DNA of 29,094 bases from a virus, in the IMG/VR virus record IMGVR_UViG_3300032820_003406, positions 1 through 29,094 of that record; one strand, given 5' to 3'. A model generated the notes under the pieces. It was given only the letters and a program-made list of their open reading frames with translations. It searched no databases and was not told where the DNA came from. Positions 3,953 through 29,094 of the stretch are shown here, in pieces. Every line of letters begins with the position of its first letter. Position 1 is the stretch's first letter. The translations under genes were made by a program, and so were the position numbers.

Positions 3953-4876
3953 TTATCTCCAATTTTTAATTATCCACGGATCGTGGCATCTGTGTGGATG
4001 GGGATCTCCATGGAAAACGCATATGCAGCAATCCTTAGGAGGAGTAACATTTTCTATATCTTGAAATTTTCTATGTCCCTTTGTAGCACCAGGAGCAAAT
4101 TCTTTAGATTTTCTTATTTCCCACTTCCAACTTTTAACCCAATGATCAGGAAATAATTCTGGAAAATTTTTATCTTTAATTGTTGATTCATACAGCCAGT
4201 CTTGATCTCCAAAAAGTCTTATTTGAATATTTTGATAATCTTTTTCAAAGTCTTTCCAAACTTTTGTTAATTGCCCTGTTTGGAATCTTATTACTGAACT
4301 ATTATATCTTTCCCAGTTAGGGCGAAGTACTCTTGTAAAGTCTCTAATAACGCACCACGACGTGGGAGCAAAAGAAAACAATTTATCCATATTACCTGAA
4401 ATAACTACATCTAGGTCTAAGTATAATATTGTACCTTTTATTCTTAGATCACTAAAAATATAAGGTTTGCACCACCATCCTTTTAAATGATTAGGTAATG
4501 GTAAAGTTTTAATTCGAGGATCTAATCCTGAAATGTCTTCTGTTAAACAATAAAATTGATGTTGAACATTGCAGTATCGTTGTGTCATATTATATAATTT
4601 GTTTACGTATTCGGGAGAATATTTAACTCCATGCTTTAAACAAAGAATATAATTATCTAGATATTCAGGAGCAGAGTGTTGGGTAGCAGGCGGCGGCGAT
4701 GGCTTTGTTGGTATAGAAGGAACCGCCGGCGGGAGAGGTTTTGTTCCTTTTAATTTTCTTTTACGGCGTTTTTCTTTTTGACGTCTTTTTTCTTCTTTGT
4801 GAAGCTTCCACTCTTCTTTAACACGCCGCCACTCGTCTTTAGTAAATTTGCTCTTGTCGGGTTTTTCCATTTTCAT
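3953..4876 (-). CDS. GT-A-fold glycosyltransferase-like protein with basic N-terminal extension
   Basis: About 307 residues. The N-terminus is a highly charged Lys/Arg helix (KEEKRRQKEKRRKRKLKG) followed by a proline-rich linker (PLPPAVPSIPTKPSPPP). The rest resembles retaining GT-A glycosyltransferases: a hydrophobic strand then YLDLDVVISG with the metal- and nucleotide-sugar-binding DxD motif, preceded by KGWWCKPYIFSDL. It overlaps the end of kdsA by 38 bases, so it is translationally coupled to a KDO-pathway enzyme, which fits lipopolysaccharide modification. The start is uncertain (ATG at 4876 or 4870). Donor and acceptor sugars cannot be deduced. Confidence 0.75.
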   Translation of the reverse strand: MKMEKPDKSKFTKDEWRRVKEEWKLHKEEKRRQKEKRRKRKLKGTKPLPPAVPSIPTKPSPPPATQHSAPEYLDNYILCLKHGVKYSPEYVNKLYNMTQRYCNVQHQFYCLTEDISGLDPRIKTLPLPNHLKGWWCKPYIFSDLRIKGTILYLDLDVVISGNMDKLFSFAPTSWCVIRDFTRVLRPNWERYNSSVIRFQTGQLTKVWKDFEKDYQNIQIRLFGDQDWLYESTIKDKNFPELFPDHWVKSWKWEIRKSKEFAPGATKGHRKFQDIENVTPPKDCCICVFHGDPHPHRCHDPWIIKNWR

Positions 4877-5705
4877 AAACTTTCTTTGTAACATTATCTA
4901 TTTCTATAATACTTTGAATAATCCCTTCAAGGTCTTTAATATGCACATTGTTAGGTCCATCACTTGCTGCATTATCGGGATCATCGTGTGTTTCCATAAA
5001 AATACCAGCAACTCCTACAGCAGTTGCAGCTTTGGCTAACGGTAATACCATTCTTCTATCGCCTCCACTAGATTCTCCCAATCCACTAGGCTGTTGGACT
5101 GAGTGTGTAGCATCAAAAATAATAGGATAACCTGTTTCAGCCATTTGTACTAAAGAACGCATGTCATTAACAAGAGTGTTATATCCAAAACTTACTCCTC
5201 TTTCTGTTAGAAGTATATTTTCGTTTCCTGTTTTTGAAACTTTATTTGCAACTTTCTCCATATCCCACGGAGCAAGAAATTGTCCTTTTTTGATATTAAT
5301 TACTTTACCTGTTCTTCCTGCTTCTACTAATAAATCTGTTTGTCTACAAAGAAAAGCAGGTATTTGAATTATATCTACTATTTCTGCTACTTTTGCTACT
5401 TGATGGGTTTCATGTACATCTGTTAGTACAGGTATCTTAAGTCTTTCTTTTATATTTTTAAGAGTAAATAATCCACCATCAATACCTACTCCGCGCTCTC
5501 CATTTATGCTAGTTCGATTCGCTTTATCAAAACTAGCTTTAAAAACAAAATCTACATTACATTTTTTGGCTATATCATATATTTGTACTGCCATTTTCAT
5601 TGCATGTATATGGCTTTCGATTTGGCACGGTCCTAATATAAATTTTATTTTTGACTCATTACTAAAGCTAAAATCTTTAAGACTAACTTTCTTTGTTTTA
5701 ACCAC
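4839..5705 (-). CDS. kdsA: 3-deoxy-D-manno-octulosonate 8-phosphate synthase
   Basis: A full-length (288-residue) KDO-8-phosphate synthase. It condenses phosphoenolpyruvate with arabinose 5-phosphate to make the core sugar precursor of lipopolysaccharide. Family signatures are intact: ILGPCQIES near residue 27, FKASFDKANRTS, the loop ATHSVQQPSG with GGDR, and ETHDDPDNAASDGPN. Cys27 in GPCxIES points to the metal-dependent subclass. The start is a GTG directly after the stop codon of the QueD-like gene, so the two are coupled. A host-like biosynthetic enzyme in a phage suggests the phage boosts or redirects LPS synthesis, possibly for receptor masking; that role is inferred. Confidence 0.93.
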   Translation of the reverse strand: MVKTKKVSLKDFSFSNESKIKFILGPCQIESHIHAMKMAVQIYDIAKKCNVDFVFKASFDKANRTSINGERGVGIDGGLFTLKNIKERLKIPVLTDVHETHQVAKVAEIVDIIQIPAFLCRQTDLLVEAGRTGKVINIKKGQFLAPWDMEKVANKVSKTGNENILLTERGVSFGYNTLVNDMRSLVQMAETGYPIIFDATHSVQQPSGLGESSGGDRRMVLPLAKAATAVGVAGIFMETHDDPDNAASDGPNNVHIKDLEGIIQSIIEIDNVTKKVYENGKTRQEQIY

Positions 5706-6176
5706 TTATTCAAATTCCTTATCTTCTCTGTGTCCAATCCTCATAGCCATATTATTATCTGTTTCTCTTACTTGTACTTTACAACACCATACGCGATCTT
5801 TCTCTCCGTAATCTTTTAAGAAGATAGTATTAACATATTCATATAGCCAATTAGCAAGACCTTCACATCCTGTTTTTTCAACTATAGTACATTTTGCAAG
5901 ACCCTTCTCTTGCAAAGCAATAAAGTCATCATAATTAGGATCATCTTCAGAAACCAAAAGTGTATGATCAAACCAATCTTCTAATAAATTTTTTAGAGGT
6001 TTTAATCCACCGTAATCCATACACCAGTTACGAGAATCCAAATCATCGCATTCAAATTCAAAATGAAATGAAAGAGCATATCCATGAATAAGATTGCAGT
6101 GACTATCTGCTCTCCATTGTCGATATGCTACAGGTCCAATGTGTGTGTAAGTTTTTGTTGAAATATACTTTGCCAT
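5706..6176 (-). CDS. 6-pyruvoyl-tetrahydropterin / 6-carboxytetrahydropterin synthase family protein (QueD-like)
   Basis: A 156-residue member of the PTPS/QueD superfamily, which acts on dihydroneopterin triphosphate in pterin or 7-deazaguanine (queuosine) synthesis. Visible landmarks are the SHCNLIHGYALSF segment with candidate catalytic Cys27, DYGGLKPLK, the Asp70-His71 pair in WFDHTLL, and RETDNN near residue 138 with the conserved Glu. The usual zinc motif HGH is HGY here, and the usual upstream SAxH reads VAYRQ, so this is a divergent subfamily. An AGGAG-like ribosome-binding site precedes the ATG. A consensus sigma70 promoter at 6245-6273 drives it together with kdsA. No other queuosine genes are in the window. 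Confidence 0.8.
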   Translation of the reverse strand: MAKYISTKTYTHIGPVAYRQWRADSHCNLIHGYALSFHFEFECDDLDSRNWCMDYGGLKPLKNLLEDWFDHTLLVSEDDPNYDDFIALQEKGLAKCTIVEKTGCEGLANWLYEYVNTIFLKDYGEKDRVWCCKVQVRETDNNMAMRIGHREDKEFE

Positions 6177-17081: not shown

Positions 17082-17387
17082 TTAACGTTGCTGTAATATT
17101 TCTACTTTTTTTATTCTATTGTATTTAAACGATCTCCAACCCTTAGCAGTTAAATCCCAAACAGTAATATTCCCTTCAGTTGGTTTTTTGTCAGTTTTTG
17201 GTCTATTTTCTTCAGGAATAATATCAAAGTTTTTTGTGCATGTCATTATGCGTTCGTCACCATTTAATTTATCAAATGTGACAATCATAGTTTTTTGTTT
17301 TAGGTTCTCTAATAATTGTTCTTCGTTAGGAATACCCTTCATTTCGGCTATTCTATCTTTAACATCAACTGTTTTTTCTTCAGTCAT
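17082..17387 (-). CDS. WYL_2 / DUF2693-like Sm-fold protein
   Basis: A 101-residue protein. After a charged helix, the core LKQKTMIVTFDKLNGDERIM followed by WDLTAKGWRSFKYNRIKKVE matches the small Sm-like beta-barrel found in T4-like phages (WYL_2, formerly DUF2693). The name refers to likeness with WYL regulatory domains; ligand and partner are unknown. It overlaps the peptidyl-tRNA hydrolase gene by eight bases. Confidence 0.75.
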   Translation of the reverse strand: MTEEKTVDVKDRIAEMKGIPNEEQLLENLKQKTMIVTFDKLNGDERIMTCTKNFDIIPEENRPKTDKKPTEGNITVWDLTAKGWRSFKYNRIKKVEILQQR

Positions 17388-17781
17388 GTAAAGGAAAATT
17401 CTGTAATATTGCTGTTAACATAAGGTCGTCTTTTTCACCAAATACATAAGCACATGTATCAACAGGTATATGCCAGGTAACTTCGCCGTCTTGCACAGGA
17501 TAAGTAGGATCATGTATTACGGCTGCTGGAAACTTACAAGCTCGGGCAACTCTAACTGCTTGTGTCATTTCTAACTCATTTACAGCTAATACTAAAACTG
17601 TACCAAAACCTTGTGGTGTTTCTTTTTCCCATTGCTTGTATAAATCATCGCCTTTTAATACGTAAGATTTTACAAATGCATTACTAGCATGAGATGCTTG
17701 AGCCATTGCTTTCCCAGGATTCATACTATCTAAATCATTTCGCATTAAAATATAAAGAACAGGTATATTGTCTGTTTTCAT
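17380..17781 (-). CDS. Peptidyl-tRNA hydrolase, Pth2 type
   Basis: A 133-residue Pth2-family protein. Pth2 enzymes, typical of archaea and eukaryotes but also seen in phages, release peptides from stalled peptidyl-tRNA. Visible features are the N-terminal strand VLYILMRNDLDSMNPGKAMA followed by QASHASNAFV (the G/K-AAQxxHA region), then VLVLAVNE and helices with KFPAAVIHDPTYPV, and a terminal acidic stretch. I choose the ATG at 17781, behind AAGGAG and one base after the ferredoxin stop, rather than the longer frame. It belongs with IF-1, the tRNAs and the synthetase core as phage-supplied translation support. Confidence 0.8.
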   Translation of the reverse strand: MKTDNIPVLYILMRNDLDSMNPGKAMAQASHASNAFVKSYVLKGDDLYKQWEKETPQGFGTVLVLAVNELEMTQAVRVARACKFPAAVIHDPTYPVQDGEVTWHIPVDTCAYVFGEKDDLMLTAILQNFPLHD

Positions 17782-17782
17782 T

Positions 17783-18124
17783 TTAATCTCCTTTGCCGGG
17801 TGATTCACTAAAGTATTGCATTTTGCCAGGAACATATTCCCAATCTTTAACATCGCCAGGAACGTCTTCTTCTCTCTTTTGTGTAATGTTAGGCCATACA
17901 TCTGCCCATTTAGTATTTAGAGTTAACCATTCTTCACTATCAGGCGCACCATCATCAATAATTGCTTCAACCGGACATTCAGGTTCACAAACGCCACAAT
18001 CGATACATTCATCTGGATGTATAACTAACATATTTTCACCTTCATAAAAACAATCAACTGGGCATACTTCTACACAATCCATATGTTTGCATTTGATACA
18101 ACTATCATTGACCAAATATGTCAT
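17783..18124 (-). CDS. 7Fe ferredoxin (FdxA / Azotobacter FdI type)
   Basis: A 113-residue bacterial-type ferredoxin, with cysteines in [20 protein letters not shown] and in [17 protein letters not shown]. These bind one [3Fe-4S] and one [4Fe-4S] cluster. The C-terminal extension ([19 protein letters not shown] and onward) matches the Azotobacter FdI plan, so this is a full-length protein. It carries electrons at low potential. Heme oxygenase and ferredoxin-dependent bilin reductase, both encoded in this window, need a ferredoxin donor. Whether this type can serve them is not known, since plant-type [2Fe-2S] ferredoxin is the usual partner. It starts directly behind the gene at 18125. Confidence 0.93.
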
Positions 18125-22762: not shown

Positions 22763-23044
22763 ATGCCTCGTTGTTTAAAAATAATATTTCCTTTAACCTT
22801 TAGTATATTCCTTCTATCGGGTTGTGCCGCAATCGTAGGATCATTAGGTTTTCCGTCTATTGTTGCTAAAACATTAAACATGGTAGGTGTTTCTACCACA
22901 GTATATGATGGTATTGCGATTATAGATGGAAATAAAACTATTAATGATCAAATACTTAGCGGAGTTACTTCTAAAGATTGTAGAACTATTAGATTATTCC
23001 GAGATCAGAAAATTTGTCAAAAAGAAATTGATCTTAAGTTGTAG
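22763..23044 (+). CDS. Small lipoprotein
   Basis: A 93-residue protein with a short signal peptide and lipobox (LTFSIFLLSGC, Cys21), so it is probably lipid-anchored. The mature part has small hydrophobic stretches and a conserved-looking end, SGVTSKDCRTIRLFRDQKIC, with two cysteines that may form a disulfide. Alphaproteobacteria have similar small lipoproteins ending in a DC...C pattern, so it may have been taken from a host. Candidate roles are superinfection exclusion or an outer-membrane spanin. It converges on and overlaps the gene at 23034 by 11 bases. Confidence 0.72.
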   Translation: MPRCLKIIFPLTFSIFLLSGCAAIVGSLGFPSIVAKTLNMVGVSTTVYDGIAIIDGNKTINDQILSGVTSKDCRTIRLFRDQKICQKEIDLKL

Positions 23045-24464
23045 GTAAACTAAAAGAGAATTTACTTTTTACAGTTGTGCCATAATAAGCATTAGCTTCT
23101 ATTTTTGCTTTATCTTGAAAGTTTGGAGGATATACTACATTAATATTTCTAATCATAGCATCTTTTGTTTTAATACCTACAGATGTTTTTGCCTGTACCA
23201 TTGCAGAACTATTAAGGAAAGAACGAATAGCTTCCCCAAAGTCAATTTCAGGATCACTATTAATATGCTCTGCAACAAGTGTAGCAACTCTTGCTAAACA
23301 AAGGTAGCTAACAAAACTTCCTCTTTTATAGCCGCCCATTTTAAATATACGTAATAACTCTTGAGGTACTTTGGCAGTATCTGTATCTGTAGCTTGTCTT
23401 ACAACAGCTTTTGGCGACATTGCATTACCTTCTAACCGCAATGCTGGATCCATTGGATTTTGCATTAGTTCTGTTAATTTATTAGCTTCTTCTTCAGATA
23501 TTAAGTTAAATCTTGAAGCGAGTATAATAGGCTGTGTTGCCGCATTTTCTTCCCTGCATATATCAAGTATAGCTACAGCTTCTGGGTATTTTTCTATATA
23601 AGCTAAACCTGTAGTTGTTTGAGATGCTTCTTCTTTTGCTCTCCAGATATTTGTAATACTTGCTCTTGCACCAGTTTTACCTTTATGACTAATTCCCATT
23701 TCAATACCATTTCTAATAACAAATGCATCAATGAGAGGATTATTTTGTTCTGGAGGAAACATAATTAAAGCATCGTTAATTTTAGAAGTTTTAAAAATGT
23801 CTGTAATTGCTTGCTGAATAGAACCTGTAACTACATTGTGTCCTGAAATTATTGCTATTGGTGCAAGTACTTCACAAAAGTCGTCTTGGATAGCTGTACG
23901 ATATTGAGCTCCGTCTGTAAAAACAACTTCTTGATTTGAACTTGCTTCTAGAGCTGCTTTTGATAGCATATCACCTTGTTCGTGGTTTTTAATAATGTTT
24001 ACAATAGCCTGAGTATTTCTAGAATTACCATCCGCAACTCCTAAGTGCCCAGGCTGCATATTAACAGATGCTTTAGTTACTGCACTTCCCTTAGCTGGTG
24101 TTAGATTAACTGCAATTGCTTCTTTATCATAAATTGTATTTGTAGGTTTAACAGATTGAAAATATTTACCTAGCCATAACTCTTTATTTGTATCAGATAT
24201 AAATTTACCAAATGCAAAGGCTCTTAATCGACTTGAAGGGGCATTGACCCAGCGAATTTCTATTTGTGGATTTGCAAGTTCTTCGATAGCATTTTGCACA
24301 TCTTCGGGAGTTTCAAAAGTATCAGCATCATTCGGATATTCAAATTCCCATAGATTAAAGTTATATTCTGTGCCATCACGATCAACATAGACTTCGTCTA
24401 CAGTAGCAGCCCGTAGTCCAGTTCCTTCTGTTAGGTGTGTTTGTCTAAATTCTAAAAATCGCAT
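23034..24464 (-). CDS. 476-residue protein of unknown function, possible nuclease-like core
   Basis: Begins MRFLEFRQTHLTEGTG, a short N-terminal tag seen on several large proteins of T4-like marine phages. The rest is soluble and mixed alpha/beta. The stretch NPLIDAFVIRNGIEMGISHK followed by GKTGARASITNI vaguely recalls PD-(D/E)xK nucleases, with a lysine after a strand, but no full motif can be fixed. A perfect late box TATAAATA (24472-24479) lies seven bases before the start, overlapping the stop of the bilin reductase gene, so it can be transcribed on its own. It is the only long gene here with no assignable family. Confidence 0.6.
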   Translation of the reverse strand: MRFLEFRQTHLTEGTGLRAATVDEVYVDRDGTEYNFNLWEFEYPNDADTFETPEDVQNAIEELANPQIEIRWVNAPSSRLRAFAFGKFISDTNKELWLGKYFQSVKPTNTIYDKEAIAVNLTPAKGSAVTKASVNMQPGHLGVADGNSRNTQAIVNIIKNHEQGDMLSKAALEASSNQEVVFTDGAQYRTAIQDDFCEVLAPIAIISGHNVVTGSIQQAITDIFKTSKINDALIMFPPEQNNPLIDAFVIRNGIEMGISHKGKTGARASITNIWRAKEEASQTTTGLAYIEKYPEAVAILDICREENAATQPIILASRFNLISEEEANKLTELMQNPMDPALRLEGNAMSPKAVVRQATDTDTAKVPQELLRIFKMGGYKRGSFVSYLCLARVATLVAEHINSDPEIDFGEAIRSFLNSSAMVQAKTSVGIKTKDAMIRNINVVYPPNFQDKAKIEANAYYGTTVKSKFSFSLPTT

Positions 24465-24471
24465 TATATTA

Positions 24472-24479
24472 TATTTATA
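24472..24479 (-). promoter_or_regulatory. Perfect T4 late promoter TATAAATA
   Basis: The minus strand matches the late consensus 8 of 8, seven bases before the ATG at 24464 and overlapping the stop codon (24475-24477) of the bilin reductase gene. Confidence 0.75.
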
Positions 24480-25170
24480 CTAGTTTAGGGAATAGCATAT
24501 CTGTACAAAATTTTTGTACGTCAGCTTCGTCGAGTCCTAAACTAGTCATTACACGCGGTGTATGTGGATTTTTTTGTTGATTCTCGCAGTAATAGTTTTG
24601 TGATGCTATAGTAAGGTCTCTATCTGCACATCCATTATATTGACCTATGCTTTCAAAATAAACTTCTAGATTATTTACTGCTAGATTTATTATAGCAGTT
24701 GCTTCTTCATCTGTTTTCACGTTACCTGCAGCAATCATACTAGGTGTAAAGATATTTTTTGCCCATTCAGGTAATTCGCGTTTTTTGCTTGGAATAAAAT
24801 CTTCCACCGCGTGTTCATACCATTCTATTAAAGGATGGTCTTCGCCTCCTGACGAAGAAGAAAAATCATGAAAAGCTCCTGTCATTTTGTTCTTTCCTGC
24901 TATTACATCAAATCCATAAATAGGACCATCATTGTTTAATTCTGGAAAACAACAAACATGCATCATCCATAATCCTTTAGATTCTCGTGCATCAACCACA
25001 TCAATATGAGCTCTGCGTATATTTTCATTAGCCCATACTCTATTAATCCAACCACCATCTGCTTGATTAAAATGATTCATCCCTGGTTCATAAATTTCGG
25101 TTGCATTTTCTTCAAATATTTGTATAATATCTTCTTGACATGATATAAGTTGATCCCATAATATACTCAT
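24475..25170 (-). CDS. Ferredoxin-dependent bilin reductase (PcyX/PebS/PcyA family)
   Basis: A 231-residue member of the ferredoxin-dependent bilin reductases, which reduce biliverdin to coloured bilins. Recognisable parts are NRVWANENIRRAHIDVVDAR, GLWMMHVCCFPELNNDGPIY and GFDVIAGKNKMTGAFHDFS, and a C-terminal YYCENQQKNPHTPRVMTSLG that fits the family end. Asp57, His71 and Asp88 align with PcyA Glu76, His88 and Asp105. In cyanophages PebS makes phycoerythrobilin, and PcyX enzymes of uncultured marine phages do the same; I cannot say which product applies here. It is the last gene of the operon starting at clpS, one base after the oxygenase. No cyanobacterial phycobiliprotein gene is seen. Confidence 0.88.
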   Translation of the reverse strand: MSILWDQLISCQEDIIQIFEENATEIYEPGMNHFNQADGGWINRVWANENIRRAHIDVVDARESKGLWMMHVCCFPELNNDGPIYGFDVIAGKNKMTGAFHDFSSSSGGEDHPLIEWYEHAVEDFIPSKKRELPEWAKNIFTPSMIAAGNVKTDEEATAIINLAVNNLEVYFESIGQYNGCADRDLTIASQNYYCENQQKNPHTPRVMTSLGLDEADVQKFCTDMLFPKLV

Positions 25171-25171
25171 T

Positions 25172-25843
25172 TTATTGATTCTCTTTAATAAGTTTATTTA
25201 GATCTAAATCTTTTGACGTAAAAACTAAGTTAGAAACTATTCTATTTTCATGATGGACGGGAGAACAACCTGTATGCATTCTATTAGCTTTAAATAAAAC
25301 TGCTCTGCCTTTTTTTGGTTCGATTTCACCTATAACTTTTAGATCTTTATGAGGCAATCGATCTTGGGTTGTTTTATCAAATAATCGAGTAGGGCCGTCA
25401 CTATCGTTTATGTAATATATAGCTACTATTAAGTTTGGATCAGGAGAATCAAAATGAGGAGGAGGATACATCCCTTCATTATGAGGCATTTGATAGCCCA
25501 TATTTGTTTTTATTCTGAAGATTGAATCTATTCTAAATTTAAATTTAAATTCAAGAAAATAAAGAACAAGCCTTAGATCATTATAAGATTCTTCAATTAA
25601 CGGTTCGATGACAGTTTCATCTACATCCATTGGCGGCGGCAAATTAGTTATTTTAGGTGCTAGAGAATGTACAGACATATGTGTAAATTGAGAAATTTCG
25701 CATATATTTGGATCGTTCTCATCAAATTCATCTTCGCCACTAGATTTACTAGCATATTGCCAGAGTGTACTCCATTGGAATCTATAGAACAACATGTCCT
25801 GAACAGATTCTGGTAAGAAATCGTCAACTATTAAATAACTCAA
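25172..25843 (-). CDS. 2OG-Fe(II) oxygenase, P4H-like
   Basis: A 223-residue dioxygenase of the 2-oxoglutarate/Fe(II) superfamily. The iron triad is His130-x-Asp132 (in PPPHFDSPDPN) and His190 (in ANRMHTGCSPV), with Arg201 (ENRIVSNLVF) as likely 2-oxoglutarate anchor. The strand VAIYYINDSDGPTRLF between them fits the P4H-like jelly roll. It overlaps the degenerate heme-oxygenase gene by four bases and precedes the bilin reductase by one base, so it belongs to the bilin operon. A bilin or a bilin-binding protein is a possible substrate, but nothing in the sequence proves it. Confidence 0.82.
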   Translation of the reverse strand: MSYLIVDDFLPESVQDMLFYRFQWSTLWQYASKSSGEDEFDENDPNICEISQFTHMSVHSLAPKITNLPPPMDVDETVIEPLIEESYNDLRLVLYFLEFKFKFRIDSIFRIKTNMGYQMPHNEGMYPPPHFDSPDPNLIVAIYYINDSDGPTRLFDKTTQDRLPHKDLKVIGEIEPKKGRAVLFKANRMHTGCSPVHHENRIVSNLVFTSKDLDLNKLIKENQ

Positions 25844-26466
25844 ATATCTAATTCCATTAGTTCGTTGCGAAGTTCAATAGATGACTCAAAACAGTATGCA
25901 CATTCAATTCCTGTGCTGAAGGCTTCCCAGTGATGTCTGACGTTGTTAGTAGCTGTTTCTATTTTAGTATCTAGTACTTGCTTTAAATCGATTGTATTCG
26001 TATCATACTGAAATAGTCTTCCTTCACCTGGAACTTTTGCGCTAAGGTAGTCTCCATGCTCTAGATTACCTATATATAAAGCATACATATGTCCCAATAG
26101 TGCAATATTGTCATGCATTACTTCTCTAAAATGTTTTATATATTCGTTTGTACTATTAAGTATCGGCGCCGGTTCATCATCATTCCAAAGTTCGTTGTAA
26201 TCTTCTAGAGCTTTTGATTTACGTTTAAGATCATGTAAATCTTCAAATAAATTAATTCCGTCTGCTATTGTTTCTAATAAATCATACTTTTTGTGTAAAT
26301 TCCATAAGTAAATAGCATATAATTTAGAAGATAATTCTCCTTCTTGTAAAATTTGTATAAATTTTTGTTTTCCTGCTTCGTCATAATATTTGGCGGTGTA
26401 CATTTCTAAATCCGACAAAGTGGACTGGCCTAGTCCACTCCAACGAGTTGATGGTTTGTCATTCAT
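25840..26466 (-). CDS. Degenerate heme-oxygenase paralogue
   Basis: A 208-residue protein that aligns along its length with the heme oxygenase at 27388-27966 (for example KLYAIYLWNLHKKYDLLE against EIYAIFLANQWPMYDILE, and AKVPGEGRLFQYD against KKVPGEKRLYTF). The heme ligand is lost: the proximal histidine (H11 in the intact enzyme) is Tyr28 here, and GDLSGGR is replaced by GNLEHGD (133-139), removing the catalytic Asp. It keeps the fold length and an intact start and stop, so it is a maintained gene rather than a pseudogene. It may bind a bilin or partner the intact enzyme. Confidence 0.85.
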   Translation of the reverse strand: MNDKPSTRWSGLGQSTLSDLEMYTAKYYDEAGKQKFIQILQEGELSSKLYAIYLWNLHKKYDLLETIADGINLFEDLHDLKRKSKALEDYNELWNDDEPAPILNSTNEYIKHFREVMHDNIALLGHMYALYIGNLEHGDYLSAKVPGEGRLFQYDTNTIDLKQVLDTKIETATNNVRHHWEAFSTGIECAYCFESSIELRNELMELDI

Positions 26467-26476
26467 TTTTTTCTCC

Positions 26477-27388
26477 TCATCTGCTATATGGCTTGTATGT
26501 TAATCCTTGATGGTCAGGTTCGTCTTCATAACACGACTCTATATATTCTGTAGTAAAATCAAAATAAAAATATTGTTTTCCAACTCGAGGTACTTTTGTA
26601 TGCCATTTGCTATTTATAATAACTCCACTTTCACTAGAAGTAGGACAATTAGTTGCTTCTCCAGTCATAAGATTACAATTATCAACAGTAATAATAGGAA
26701 TTTTTGTCATAAAGCTCATCATTCTTAAATGAGCATCATGCCAGTCATTATATAATTCATCATCTTTATTTCCTCGACCTCCATTAGTAGAATGAATAAA
26801 AAGATGAACCTTGTTAGATAAGGTAGTTTTGTCAACTGTATTAATAGACTCTCTTCCTAAATTAAAAGTGCCATAAGCAGCCCAAGGCAAACTTACTTCA
26901 CTTTCCCAAATGCTGCCCCATAAGTCATTGCATATTAATCCTACTGCATTAAATTGTTCTTTTTCAGTTTCTAGCTTAATTACCTTAATGCCTGCTTTTT
27001 TCAAGTCATGTGCTAAAAAATTTCCATCCCAACCTTTAATTAGATAAGTTTTGTTTGTTGCTCCTAAGAAAGTACCTTCTTTATCATAAAATCGAATTTG
27101 ATTTCTTTTAACATAACCTATTTCTTCTAGATCATGGAATAGGGTTCCCAAGCATAAACCTATTTTTAAATTTTTAGAATATTCTTCAATTTCAGATAAT
27201 ACTGCCATTAAGCCTTCATTAGCTTCCGCACTCATTATTGCTTGAGGATAGTAACCACTTAATGAACCTTCTGGCGTAACTAAAAAGTCACAATTGTTTT
27301 CAGATGCCCAATCTATACTTTCTTTAATAGTTTTAGTATTAGCAACAATATCCCGTGTGACAGGTATTTGTGCACCTGCAATTCTCAT
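26477..27388 (-). CDS. Nitrilase-superfamily carbon-nitrogen hydrolase
   Basis: A 303-residue CN-hydrolase with an intact Glu-Lys-Cys triad: Glu40 in VTPEGSLSGY, Lys113 in NKTYLI and Cys153 in GLICNDLWG. The fold begins with MRIAGAQIPVTRDI, a normal family start. These enzymes hydrolyse amides, nitriles or carbamoyl groups. The substrate cannot be read from the sequence. Its ATG overlaps the stop of heme oxygenase by one base (TAATG), placing it inside the bilin operon, where such an enzyme has no known part. It may process an amide of a tetrapyrrole, or have an independent task in nitrogen use. Confidence 0.88.
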   Translation of the reverse strand: MRIAGAQIPVTRDIVANTKTIKESIDWASENNCDFLVTPEGSLSGYYPQAIMSAEANEGLMAVLSEIEEYSKNLKIGLCLGTLFHDLEEIGYVKRNQIRFYDKEGTFLGATNKTYLIKGWDGNFLAHDLKKAGIKVIKLETEKEQFNAVGLICNDLWGSIWESEVSLPWAAYGTFNLGRESINTVDKTTLSNKVHLFIHSTNGGRGNKDDELYNDWHDAHLRMMSFMTKIPIITVDNCNLMTGEATNCPTSSESGVIINSKWHTKVPRVGKQYFYFDFTTEYIESCYEDEPDHQGLTYKPYSR

Positions 27389-27966
27389 TAGAAAGGATCA
27401 CCGATTCTCTTAAATATTGAATAATTCGGCGCCTTAGCAAGAGCCATCATTTCGCGGAAAGTGTCTGTAGCGAAATCAAAACAAATTTTTGCCTCGTCAG
27501 CCATATCATCTGTCAGGCGTTCTCGAATTTTTGTTTTTAGTGTATCAGGATCTTTAAAAGTATAAAGTCTTTTTTCTCCTGGTACTTTTTTTGCTATCAT
27601 GCGACCGCCACTTAAATCTCCCATATGACGAGTATATATGTGTGCAAATAATTTTGTTTCGTCGTCTTTTATATCCATTATATGAGCTGTGTATTTTTCT
27701 GTAACTTCTAAGCGAGGAGGTAGTTCTTCTTTAGTCCACAATTCTCTCCAGTCTTGCCAGATGGCATATGTTCTACGTATATCAAGTAATCCATCTAGTA
27801 GCCCTGCCCCTAAAGCACTAGCTTCTAATATGTCATACATAGGCCATTGATTTGCTAAGAATATTGCATAAATTTCAGGATCAATGTTTCCAGACATTAA
27901 AATTGTTACAAATTCTTGTCTTTCAGCGTTTTGATGATGCTCTTTAGTTAATTCTCTTAAGCTCAT
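27388..27966 (-). CDS. Heme oxygenase (HO-1 type)
   Basis: A 192-residue heme oxygenase, which opens heme to biliverdin, CO and iron, using ferredoxin or other electrons. Proximal His11 lies in LTKEHHQNAERQEFV. The distal-helix signature is HIYTRHMGDLSGGRM with Asp117 (Asp140 of human HO-1). VPGEKRLYTF follows as in cyanobacterial and phage Ho1. Its start overlaps clpS by four bases, and its stop overlaps the nitrilase start. Biliverdin is the substrate of the bilin reductase downstream, so the pair forms a two-step path from host heme to a reduced bilin. Confidence 0.93.
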   Translation of the reverse strand: MSLRELTKEHHQNAERQEFVTILMSGNIDPEIYAIFLANQWPMYDILEASALGAGLLDGLLDIRRTYAIWQDWRELWTKEELPPRLEVTEKYTAHIMDIKDDETKLFAHIYTRHMGDLSGGRMIAKKVPGEKRLYTFKDPDTLKTKIRERLTDDMADEAKICFDFATDTFREMMALAKAPNYSIFKRIGDPF

Positions 27967-28277
27967 TCTTCTTCTACTTTTATTTGGAGAGGATATCCTT
28001 TGTCTTTGCTTGCTAAAGTAGCTTCTACACTTTTTTGTTCAGCTATCTCGTATACATATATACCTACAACTGCACTTCCTTCTTCATGAATTTGAAGCAT
28101 AATAGCTTGACTAGATTCTAGTGTATGTTTAAAAATTGTTGCAAGAATTTCTACGACCCATTCCATGGGAGTTGCATTGTCGTTAAAGAAAATCACTTTA
28201 TATCTAGGAGGTTCGATAATTCTTTTTTCAATCTTTTCATCGATCTTAACATCGATTGCAACATCACATCCGCTCAT
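27963..28277 (-). CDS. clpS: ClpS adaptor for ClpAP/ClpCP protease
   Basis: A 104-residue ClpS. It delivers N-degron proteins to the Clp unfoldase. RYKVIFFNDNATPMEWVVEI contains the N-end-rule pocket pattern, IMLQIHEEGSAVVGIYVYEI carries the pocket His, and the C-terminal YPLQIKVEEE is the family end. I choose the ATG at 28277, behind GGGAGAG, giving a normal length. Its stop overlaps the heme oxygenase start. A phage ClpS could redirect host proteolysis, and sits behind dnaK with a hairpin between them. Its link to the bilin genes is positional only. Confidence 0.92.
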   Translation of the reverse strand: MSGCDVAIDVKIDEKIEKRIIEPPRYKVIFFNDNATPMEWVVEILATIFKHTLESSQAIMLQIHEEGSAVVGIYVYEIAEQKSVEATLASKDKGYPLQIKVEEE

Positions 28278-28362: not shown

Positions 28363-29094
28363 TTACGGTTTATCGTCAACTGTTGTAAATTCTGCATCTA
28401 CAACATCGTCGTCATTATTAAAATCTTCTGTAGGAGTTTCTGTTTGCTCTTGTTGACTTTTATAGATAGCTTCACCTAACTTCATAGACACTTGACTTAA
28501 ATTTTCTGTTTCTTGTTTTATTAATTCAGAATCAGAACCTTTAAGTGCGTCTTTTAGATTAGTAATACTAGTTTCTATAGCAGTTTTGTCATCAGTTGAA
28601 ATTTTATCTCCGTGTTCTTCTAGAGACTTTTCAATTGAATGAGCAAGTGCGTCTGCTTGATTTCTAGTTTCGGCTTCTTCGCGTTTCTTTTGATCTGCTT
28701 CTTTATTAGTCTCAGCGTCTCTTATCATTTGTTCAATGTCAGCATCACTTAATCCACTAGATGCTTGTATTTGAATTGATTGTTCCTTACCTGTTCCTTT
28801 ATCTTTAGCAGACACATTAACAATACCATTAGCATCAATATCAAAAGTAACTTCAATTTGTGGCATACCACGAGGTGCAGGGGGTATATCTTGTAAATCA
28901 AAATTCCCCAATAGCTTGTTATCGTTTGCCATTTCGCGTTCACCTTGAACAACTTTAATTGTAACTGCTGGTTGATTATTTTCAGCAGTAGAAAAGATTT
29001 GACTCTTTTTAGTAGGTATTGTTGTGTTTTTATCAATTAATCTTGTAGTAACAGCACCTAGTGTTTCTATACCCAATGATAGCGGAGTTACATC
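28363..29094 (-). CDS. dnaK: Molecular chaperone DnaK (Hsp70), C-terminal half, cut by the window edge
   Basis: The frame enters at the right edge in [20 protein letters not shown], the start of the substrate-binding domain. It runs through [37 protein letters not shown], the helical lid and the usual acidic tail ([16 protein letters not shown]). At least 243 residues are present, and the ATPase domain lies outside. No frameshift is seen. A complete, host-type C-terminus suggests a functional chaperone. Phages usually rely on host DnaK, so a phage copy is notable; it may aid virion assembly or heat-shock handling. Confidence 0.93.

Follow-up and report, generated by a model that had tools for sequence, protein, structure and literature searches.

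The closest described counterpart of the locus analyzed here is the phage hemO-pcyX cassette, known from the PcyX structure 5owg, from pelagimyophage contigs (PMC11480375) and from the Pelagibacter phage Mosig EXVC030M (MT647606), in which a heme oxygenase (HO) gene lies upstream of a gene for a PcyX-type bilin reductase. Asp55 is the PcyX-specific catalytic residue, tied to PcyX activity, which makes phycoerythrobilin (PEB), and not to PcyA activity (PMC11480375). Auxiliary bilin genes are likewise found in T4-like marine cyanophages, as ho1-pebS and pcyA. Regarding phages of non-photosynthetic hosts, only speculation has so far been offered on the purpose of their phycobilin genes (PMC11480375). 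Here, we analyzed a 29,094-bp linear viral fragment (IMG/VR record IMGVR_UViG_3300032820_003406; hereafter, the window), in which a PcyX-type bilin operon carries three further genes between its heme oxygenase and its reductase. The core pathway of this operon is known, whereas its variable slot for accessory genes is new. Our overall reading, to which we assign a probability of roughly 0.45, is that the HO/reductase junction is a recurrent docking site for accessories that most likely act on the pathway.

The window resembles the hemO-pcyX cassette in having HO upstream of a PcyX-type reductase with an Asp55 equivalent, but differs in carrying ClpS and chaperone genes upstream, and a nitrilase-superfamily amidase (NIT), a second heme oxygenase (HO2) and a 2-oxoglutarate (2OG)-Fe(II) oxygenase between the pathway genes. 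In Mosig, the isolate with the closest reductase (55% identical), the region upstream of HO holds 2OG oxygenases and a ferrochelatase, where the window has ClpS and chaperones. The reductases of cyanophages are distant (only 23-31% similar to that of the window), and there is no evidence of a cyanobacterial host for the window phage.

A PcyX-Type Bilin Operon with Additional Genes

The six genes of the operon are the following:

24475..25170, minus strand: bilin reductase (ferredoxin-dependent, PcyX type; FDBR), 231 aa; Pfam PF05996 (Fe_bilin_red), 5e-16
25172..25843, minus strand: 2OG-Fe(II) oxygenase, 223 aa, TTG start; PF13640 (2OG-FeII_Oxy_3), 1.8e-6
25840..26466, minus strand: HO2, His-less heme-oxygenase paralogue, 208 aa; PF01126 (Heme_oxygenase), 5.8e-7
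26477..27388, minus strand: NIT, nitrilase-superfamily amidase, 303 aa; PF00795 (CN_hydrolase), 2.4e-11
27388..27966, minus strand: HO1, canonical heme oxygenase, 192 aa; PF01126, 1.5e-19
27963..28277, minus strand: ClpS protease adaptor, 104 aa, ATG start; PF02617, 4.2e-26

As the first-pass annotation of this DNA had described, all six open reading frames (ORFs) are present on one strand between 24475 and 28277, with spacings of -4 to +10 nt. Each scores above the Pfam cut-off of its family, and the catalytic residues, as read from the sequence, are intact in HO1, NIT, the 2OG oxygenase and FDBR, HO2 being degenerate. The genes within the junction probably share one transcript with HO and the reductase; a promoter and terminator scan performed no better than on shuffled sequences. 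A longer ClpS frame with a GTG start reaches 28319, but the ATG at 28277 fits the ClpS relatives better.

HO1 has the proximal His11 and the GDLSGG motif (116-121) of canonical heme oxygenases, and heme oxygenases in the PDB match it at 2e-10. The nearest solved structure to FDBR is PcyX_EBK42635 (5owg; E 1.3e-83, residues 3-228), and the alignment places D57 at the position of PcyX Asp55, where PcyA has Glu76, with H71 and D88 corresponding to PcyA His88 and Asp105; thus, the protein has both the FDBR fold and the Asp replacement expected of PcyX. Families, catalytic residues and the conserved gene pairing all support the bilin pathway proposed earlier. It is very likely that HO1 and the reductase make a bilin, and PEB is its probable identity: HO1 would cleave the heme ring, releasing biliverdin IXalpha along with CO and iron; with a ferredoxin, the reductase would carry out a four-electron reduction of biliverdin, most likely yielding PEB, a pink bile pigment.

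The HO/PcyX Junction as a Recurrent Insertion Slot

A set of 171 distinct phage reductases, each with an HO gene upstream, came from scanning viral contigs eight times, twice without matches. A long, well-supported branch in the reductase tree parts two operon types. In the ClpS type, which includes the window, the order is Hsp20, often DnaK or GroEL/GroES, and then ClpS-HO-FDBR, with DnaK preceding ClpS or Hsp20 in the nearest relatives of the window; in the Mosig type, 2OG oxygenases are often followed, sometimes after halogenases, by HO-FDBR and usually by a neck-protein gene. ClpS lies at most three genes upstream of HO in 105 of the 171 operons. The conserved block is (Hsp20)-ClpS-HO-PcyX, and conservation of all six genes as a block is not supported: among the other distinct operons, NIT is found in 9/171, the 2OG family of the window in 3/171, and HO2 in none searched. 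Nevertheless, the co-conservation put forward in the first-pass annotation as a check holds in part for both NIT and the 2OG oxygenase, as other phage lineages also carry their orthologues or homologues at this junction of an HO-PcyX pair; HO2 has no orthologue. PcyX operons were also seen in four contigs of metagenome-assembled genomes (Neomarinimicrobiota, Pirellulales, Halobacteroidaceae and Rickettsiales; L326-L329, L numbers denoting loci of the collection), which are probably mis-binned phage.

Genes have repeatedly been recruited to the junction between HO and PcyX. It is occupied by a short ORF (c32) in 17 operons, a halogenase alone in 9, a halogenase with NIT in 3, NIT alone in 4, 2OG with NIT in 2, a 2OG gene of the window family alone in 1, other 2OG genes in 2 and unknown genes in 2, which amounts to 12 operons with a halogenase, 9 with NIT and 5 with 2OG (three of the window family); the window itself adds NIT-HO2-2OG. 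Slot genes often overlap their neighbors by 1-4 nt. This one junction accounts for 11 of the 17 Trp_halogenase matches and 7 of the 11 CN_hydrolase matches in 35 related records, which total 3.09 Mb and include some that are near-identical. On the reductase tree, at least 6 changes (gains or losses) are needed for NIT in the slot, 2 for the halogenase and 4 for 2OG, and the NIT tree splits the slot copies into at least two groups. Because some records are near-copies, our reading of the tree is that the match counts overstate the independent arrivals, whose number is probably closer to four for NIT and to one or two for the halogenase.

The slot halogenase is carried by the nearest relatives of the window phage (L003-L006) and not by the window (positions are L003:7537-9105 and L048:8511-10004, among others), usually with a 4-nt overlap with the start of the next gene. 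It matches PF04820 at 1.6e-87 and tryptophan halogenases in the PDB, including VirX1, at 2e-53, and inspection found the GxGxxG and PLES motifs kept. It resembles these enzymes and VirX1 (6qgm), a phage flavin-dependent halogenase, and differs from them in lying inside a bilin operon.

Properties of the Accessory Proteins

NIT has the Glu-Lys-Cys triad of the nitrilase superfamily (E40/K113/C153), which is invariant in 25 divergent relatives, and a predicted CN-hydrolase fold (pLDDT 87) with Foldseek matches to D-carbamoylase, N-carbamoylputrescine amidohydrolase and Nit2; its identity to solved amidases is 13-18%. The NIT in the slot of L003 shares 60% identity with it. A single-sequence scan of viral contigs returned no relatives, and a profile search succeeded. 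The names NAD synthetase, aguB and de-GSH amidase were discarded, since their NCBIfam scores all fall far below cut-off. Loci L085-L162 hold a large, mostly uncharacterized family of phage nitrilase-superfamily amidases, often in 2-3 tandem copies and near 2OG oxygenases, which is also present in cyanophages P-SSM2 and P-SSM5.

The 2OG oxygenase shows the HxD...H metal triad (H130-x-D132, H190) and the 2OG-binding Arg (R201); Pfam and this motif overrule the name 'DNA endonuclease V' (PHROG 274). Its orthologues in L091-L093 are 40-44% identical and lie between HO and NIT (HO-2OG-NIT-FDBR), the 2OG and NIT genes of these loci having dN/dS values of 0.09-0.29, and a 32% homologue occupies the slot of L370.

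In HO2, Tyr28 stands in place of the proximal His, and GNLEHG (133-138) in place of GDLSGG, with Asn134 and His137 as substituted residues, so that it lacks both the proximal His and the distal GDxxGG motif of a canonical heme oxygenase. Its AlphaFold2 model is nevertheless confident (pLDDT 90.6), and the top Foldseek matches are all heme oxygenases (E 4.9e-7, TM ~0.78). The second-best of them is human HO-1 H25R with biliverdin bound (5btq), in which the proximal His is also replaced; HO2 differs from it in having a natural Tyr replacement and an altered distal motif, and a Tyr/His heme site is possible. HO2 is 31% identical to HO1 and 44% to the HOs of L017/L070, and on the tree it falls within the L017/L070 clade (100/99) of ClpS-type HOs, on a long branch (2.21) that leaves its exact placement unsure. 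Both results disfavor an origin by in-place duplication of HO1. No orthologue was found in viral contigs by a single-sequence scan, and a profile returned only ordinary HO (best identity 42%); nor was a second HO found in any other related record examined.

Loss of the proximal His is found in 3 of 154 distinct HO sequences, namely HO2 and the HOs of L008 (9421-9990) and L009 (9419-9988). The latter two (motif GDLEGK) lie next to PcyX and are the sole HO found in records of 48 and 50 kb. Their dN/dS is 0.067, compared with 0.058 for the adjoining reductase, indicating strong purifying selection. That this copy is constrained and is the only HO in its record suggests that a His-less HO can be useful to a phage.

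Possible Roles of the Accessories

Individual lineages would thus add a flavin halogenase, NIT, a 2OG oxygenase or, as here, NIT, HO2 and 2OG at the HO/reductase junction, and these accessories would most likely work on the product or the substrate of the flanking enzymes, through oxidation and amide chemistry on the bilin, with a catalytically dead HO2 binding heme or biliverdin. We infer that bilin tailoring best explains the repeated arrival of halogenase, 2OG and amidase genes in the junction, and tentatively suggest the heme/bilin pathway as the target of the accessories, a proposal that, like the catalytic products, is drawn from gene families and their arrangement. The first-pass annotation had proposed that the extra genes tailor, bind or attach the bilin; what stands is that NIT and 2OG repeatedly co-occur with the pathway, as accessories, while tailoring, binding or attachment stays conjectural and HO2 was in none of the other operons searched. 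The addition of halogenase, amidase and oxygenase genes between pathway genes by several lineages separately raises the possibility that the pathway does not end at the plain bilin. A broader version, which we consider doubtful, is that marine phages make modified bilins, an HO-PcyX core being combined with an exchangeable halogenase/2OG/nitrilase-type tailoring set and a dead HO as heme or biliverdin carrier to give halogenated, hydroxylated or amide-processed tetrapyrroles that differ by lineage, in hosts that lack light-harvesting biliproteins. In the literature searched, with subscription papers mostly outside the search, no report of a halogenase, nitrilase or ClpS with phage HO/FDBR was found. 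The slot contents name enzymes to examine for the part that phycobilin genes play in phages of non-photosynthetic hosts.

Several observations weigh against a role on the pathway. To our knowledge, biliverdin and PEB have no side-chain amide that NIT could cleave. The accessories are dispensable, as the slot is empty in 131 of the 171 operons. Moreover, more NIT-family genes lie outside bilin operons (~48 non-redundant loci) than within them, and those outside are enriched beside 2OG genes (within two genes, 7.0% vs 2.4%; permutation p 0.007, with relatives non-independent), which keeps alive both the view of these genes as passengers and that of an independent NIT-2OG pair. Halogenase families are also found outside bilin operons. 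In addition, selection on HO2 is not measurable, as it is a singleton, and an insertion hotspot alone would also yield recurrence.

The rival that survives best, and that we hold as a serious prospect at somewhat under even odds, builds on this last point: the junction would be merely insertion-permissive within an auxiliary-gene island, its accessories serving general host takeover unrelated to bilins. The slot does take short unknown ORFs (c32) and, in L055, a tandem pair of unannotated proteins; NIT and halogenase families are widespread elsewhere in marine phages; and in Mosig-type phages the surroundings of HO-PcyX are a variable island with many 2OG oxygenases, and 9 of 37 loci have halogenases within 5 kb. 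However, the same few families (halogenase, NIT and 2OG) keep returning to the HO/PcyX junction, while the ClpS/HO junction is hardly ever interrupted (97 of the 105 operons with ClpS within three genes have it immediately upstream of HO). Among 13 ClpS-type records with a halogenase, 11 have their sole copy in the slot.

It is unlikely that the extra genes are passengers of a single phage, with HO2 a pseudogene copy in decay. The loss of both heme-site motifs, the very long branch and the lack of an orthologue are what decay would leave, but the 208-aa frame is intact, with a purine-rich ribosome-binding site, a 4-nt overlap with the 2OG gene and GC3 as in its neighbors; moreover, the predicted HO fold is confident, and the separate His-less HO of L008/L009 is strongly constrained. 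Finally, it is quite improbable that NIT and the 2OG oxygenase form a bilin-independent pair, in which an omega-amidase-like NIT would free 2-oxoglutarate from 2-oxoglutaramate for the oxygenase or both would modify another small molecule, as, despite the joint presence of both genes in the window and L091-L093, the 2OG enrichment beside outside NIT genes and a PDB profile search that ranks yeast Nit2 first (5.8e-5) and also returns NAD-synthetase glutaminase domains, D-carbamoylase and N-carbamoylputrescine amidohydrolase rank above Nit2 among structural neighbors, slot NIT occurs without slot 2OG in L003-L005, L051, L078, L114 and L254, and 2OG occurs without NIT in L370.

ClpS, Proteostasis and Pigment Acceptors

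The operon lies in a phage proteostasis block (DnaK/Hsp20/GroEL-ClpS), with ClpS as the adaptor of a Clp protease. ClpA-like Clp_N proteins (~750 aa) are encoded in 9 of 30 related records and ClpP-family proteins in 27 of 30, one divergent class of which could be prohead proteases; given these genes, the Clp protease that ClpS serves is probably encoded in part by the phage. With ClpA-like and ClpP-family proteins, ClpS, Hsp20, DnaK and GroEL/ES, the records of L008-L296 (G005-G035) encode almost all of a phage proteostasis set. Of 30 relatives, 9 have AlaS, which lies outside the bilin operon in the loci examined and is absent from the window fragment. The steady association of the operon with ClpS, with chaperones and, among relatives, with ClpA/ClpP-family genes ties heme breakdown to phage proteostasis, a link for which no description was found in the literature searched. 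In plants, ClpS and a heme-binding protein jointly control tetrapyrrole synthesis (GluTR/GBP, PMC6597238); any relevance of this precedent to the window phage would be speculation.

The earlier remark that the phage carries no visible phycobiliprotein extends to its relatives: no phycobiliprotein (Phycobilisome) was found in 35 related records and no phytochrome PHY domain in 30, all of them possibly incomplete.

Flanking and Other Genes of the Window

The block is bigger than six genes, with one further gene on each side:

28363..29094, minus strand: DnaK, C-terminal part, truncated by the window end; PF00012, 2.1e-76
23034..24464, minus strand: 476-aa ORF, 10 nt after FDBR; other operons have homologues of it (cluster c25) after FDBR

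The 476-aa ORF has no PHROG match. In the window and in many ClpS-type operons of relatives, the ORF after FDBR is highly divergent (350-560 aa), with the N-terminus MRF..F, and some of these proteins show a GD...EVK pattern resembling PD-(D/E)XK nucleases. Other genes of the window are myophage-like (tail-fibre connector, DNA ligase, 2OG oxygenases and glycosyltransferase). A DAHP synthase (4839-6176; PF00793, 1.8e-72) adjoins a 6-pyruvoyl-tetrahydropterin-synthase/QueD-like gene, the pair representing aromatic and pterin/queuosine metabolism, and a peptidyl-tRNA hydrolase PTH2 domain is encoded at 17380-17901 (7e-11).

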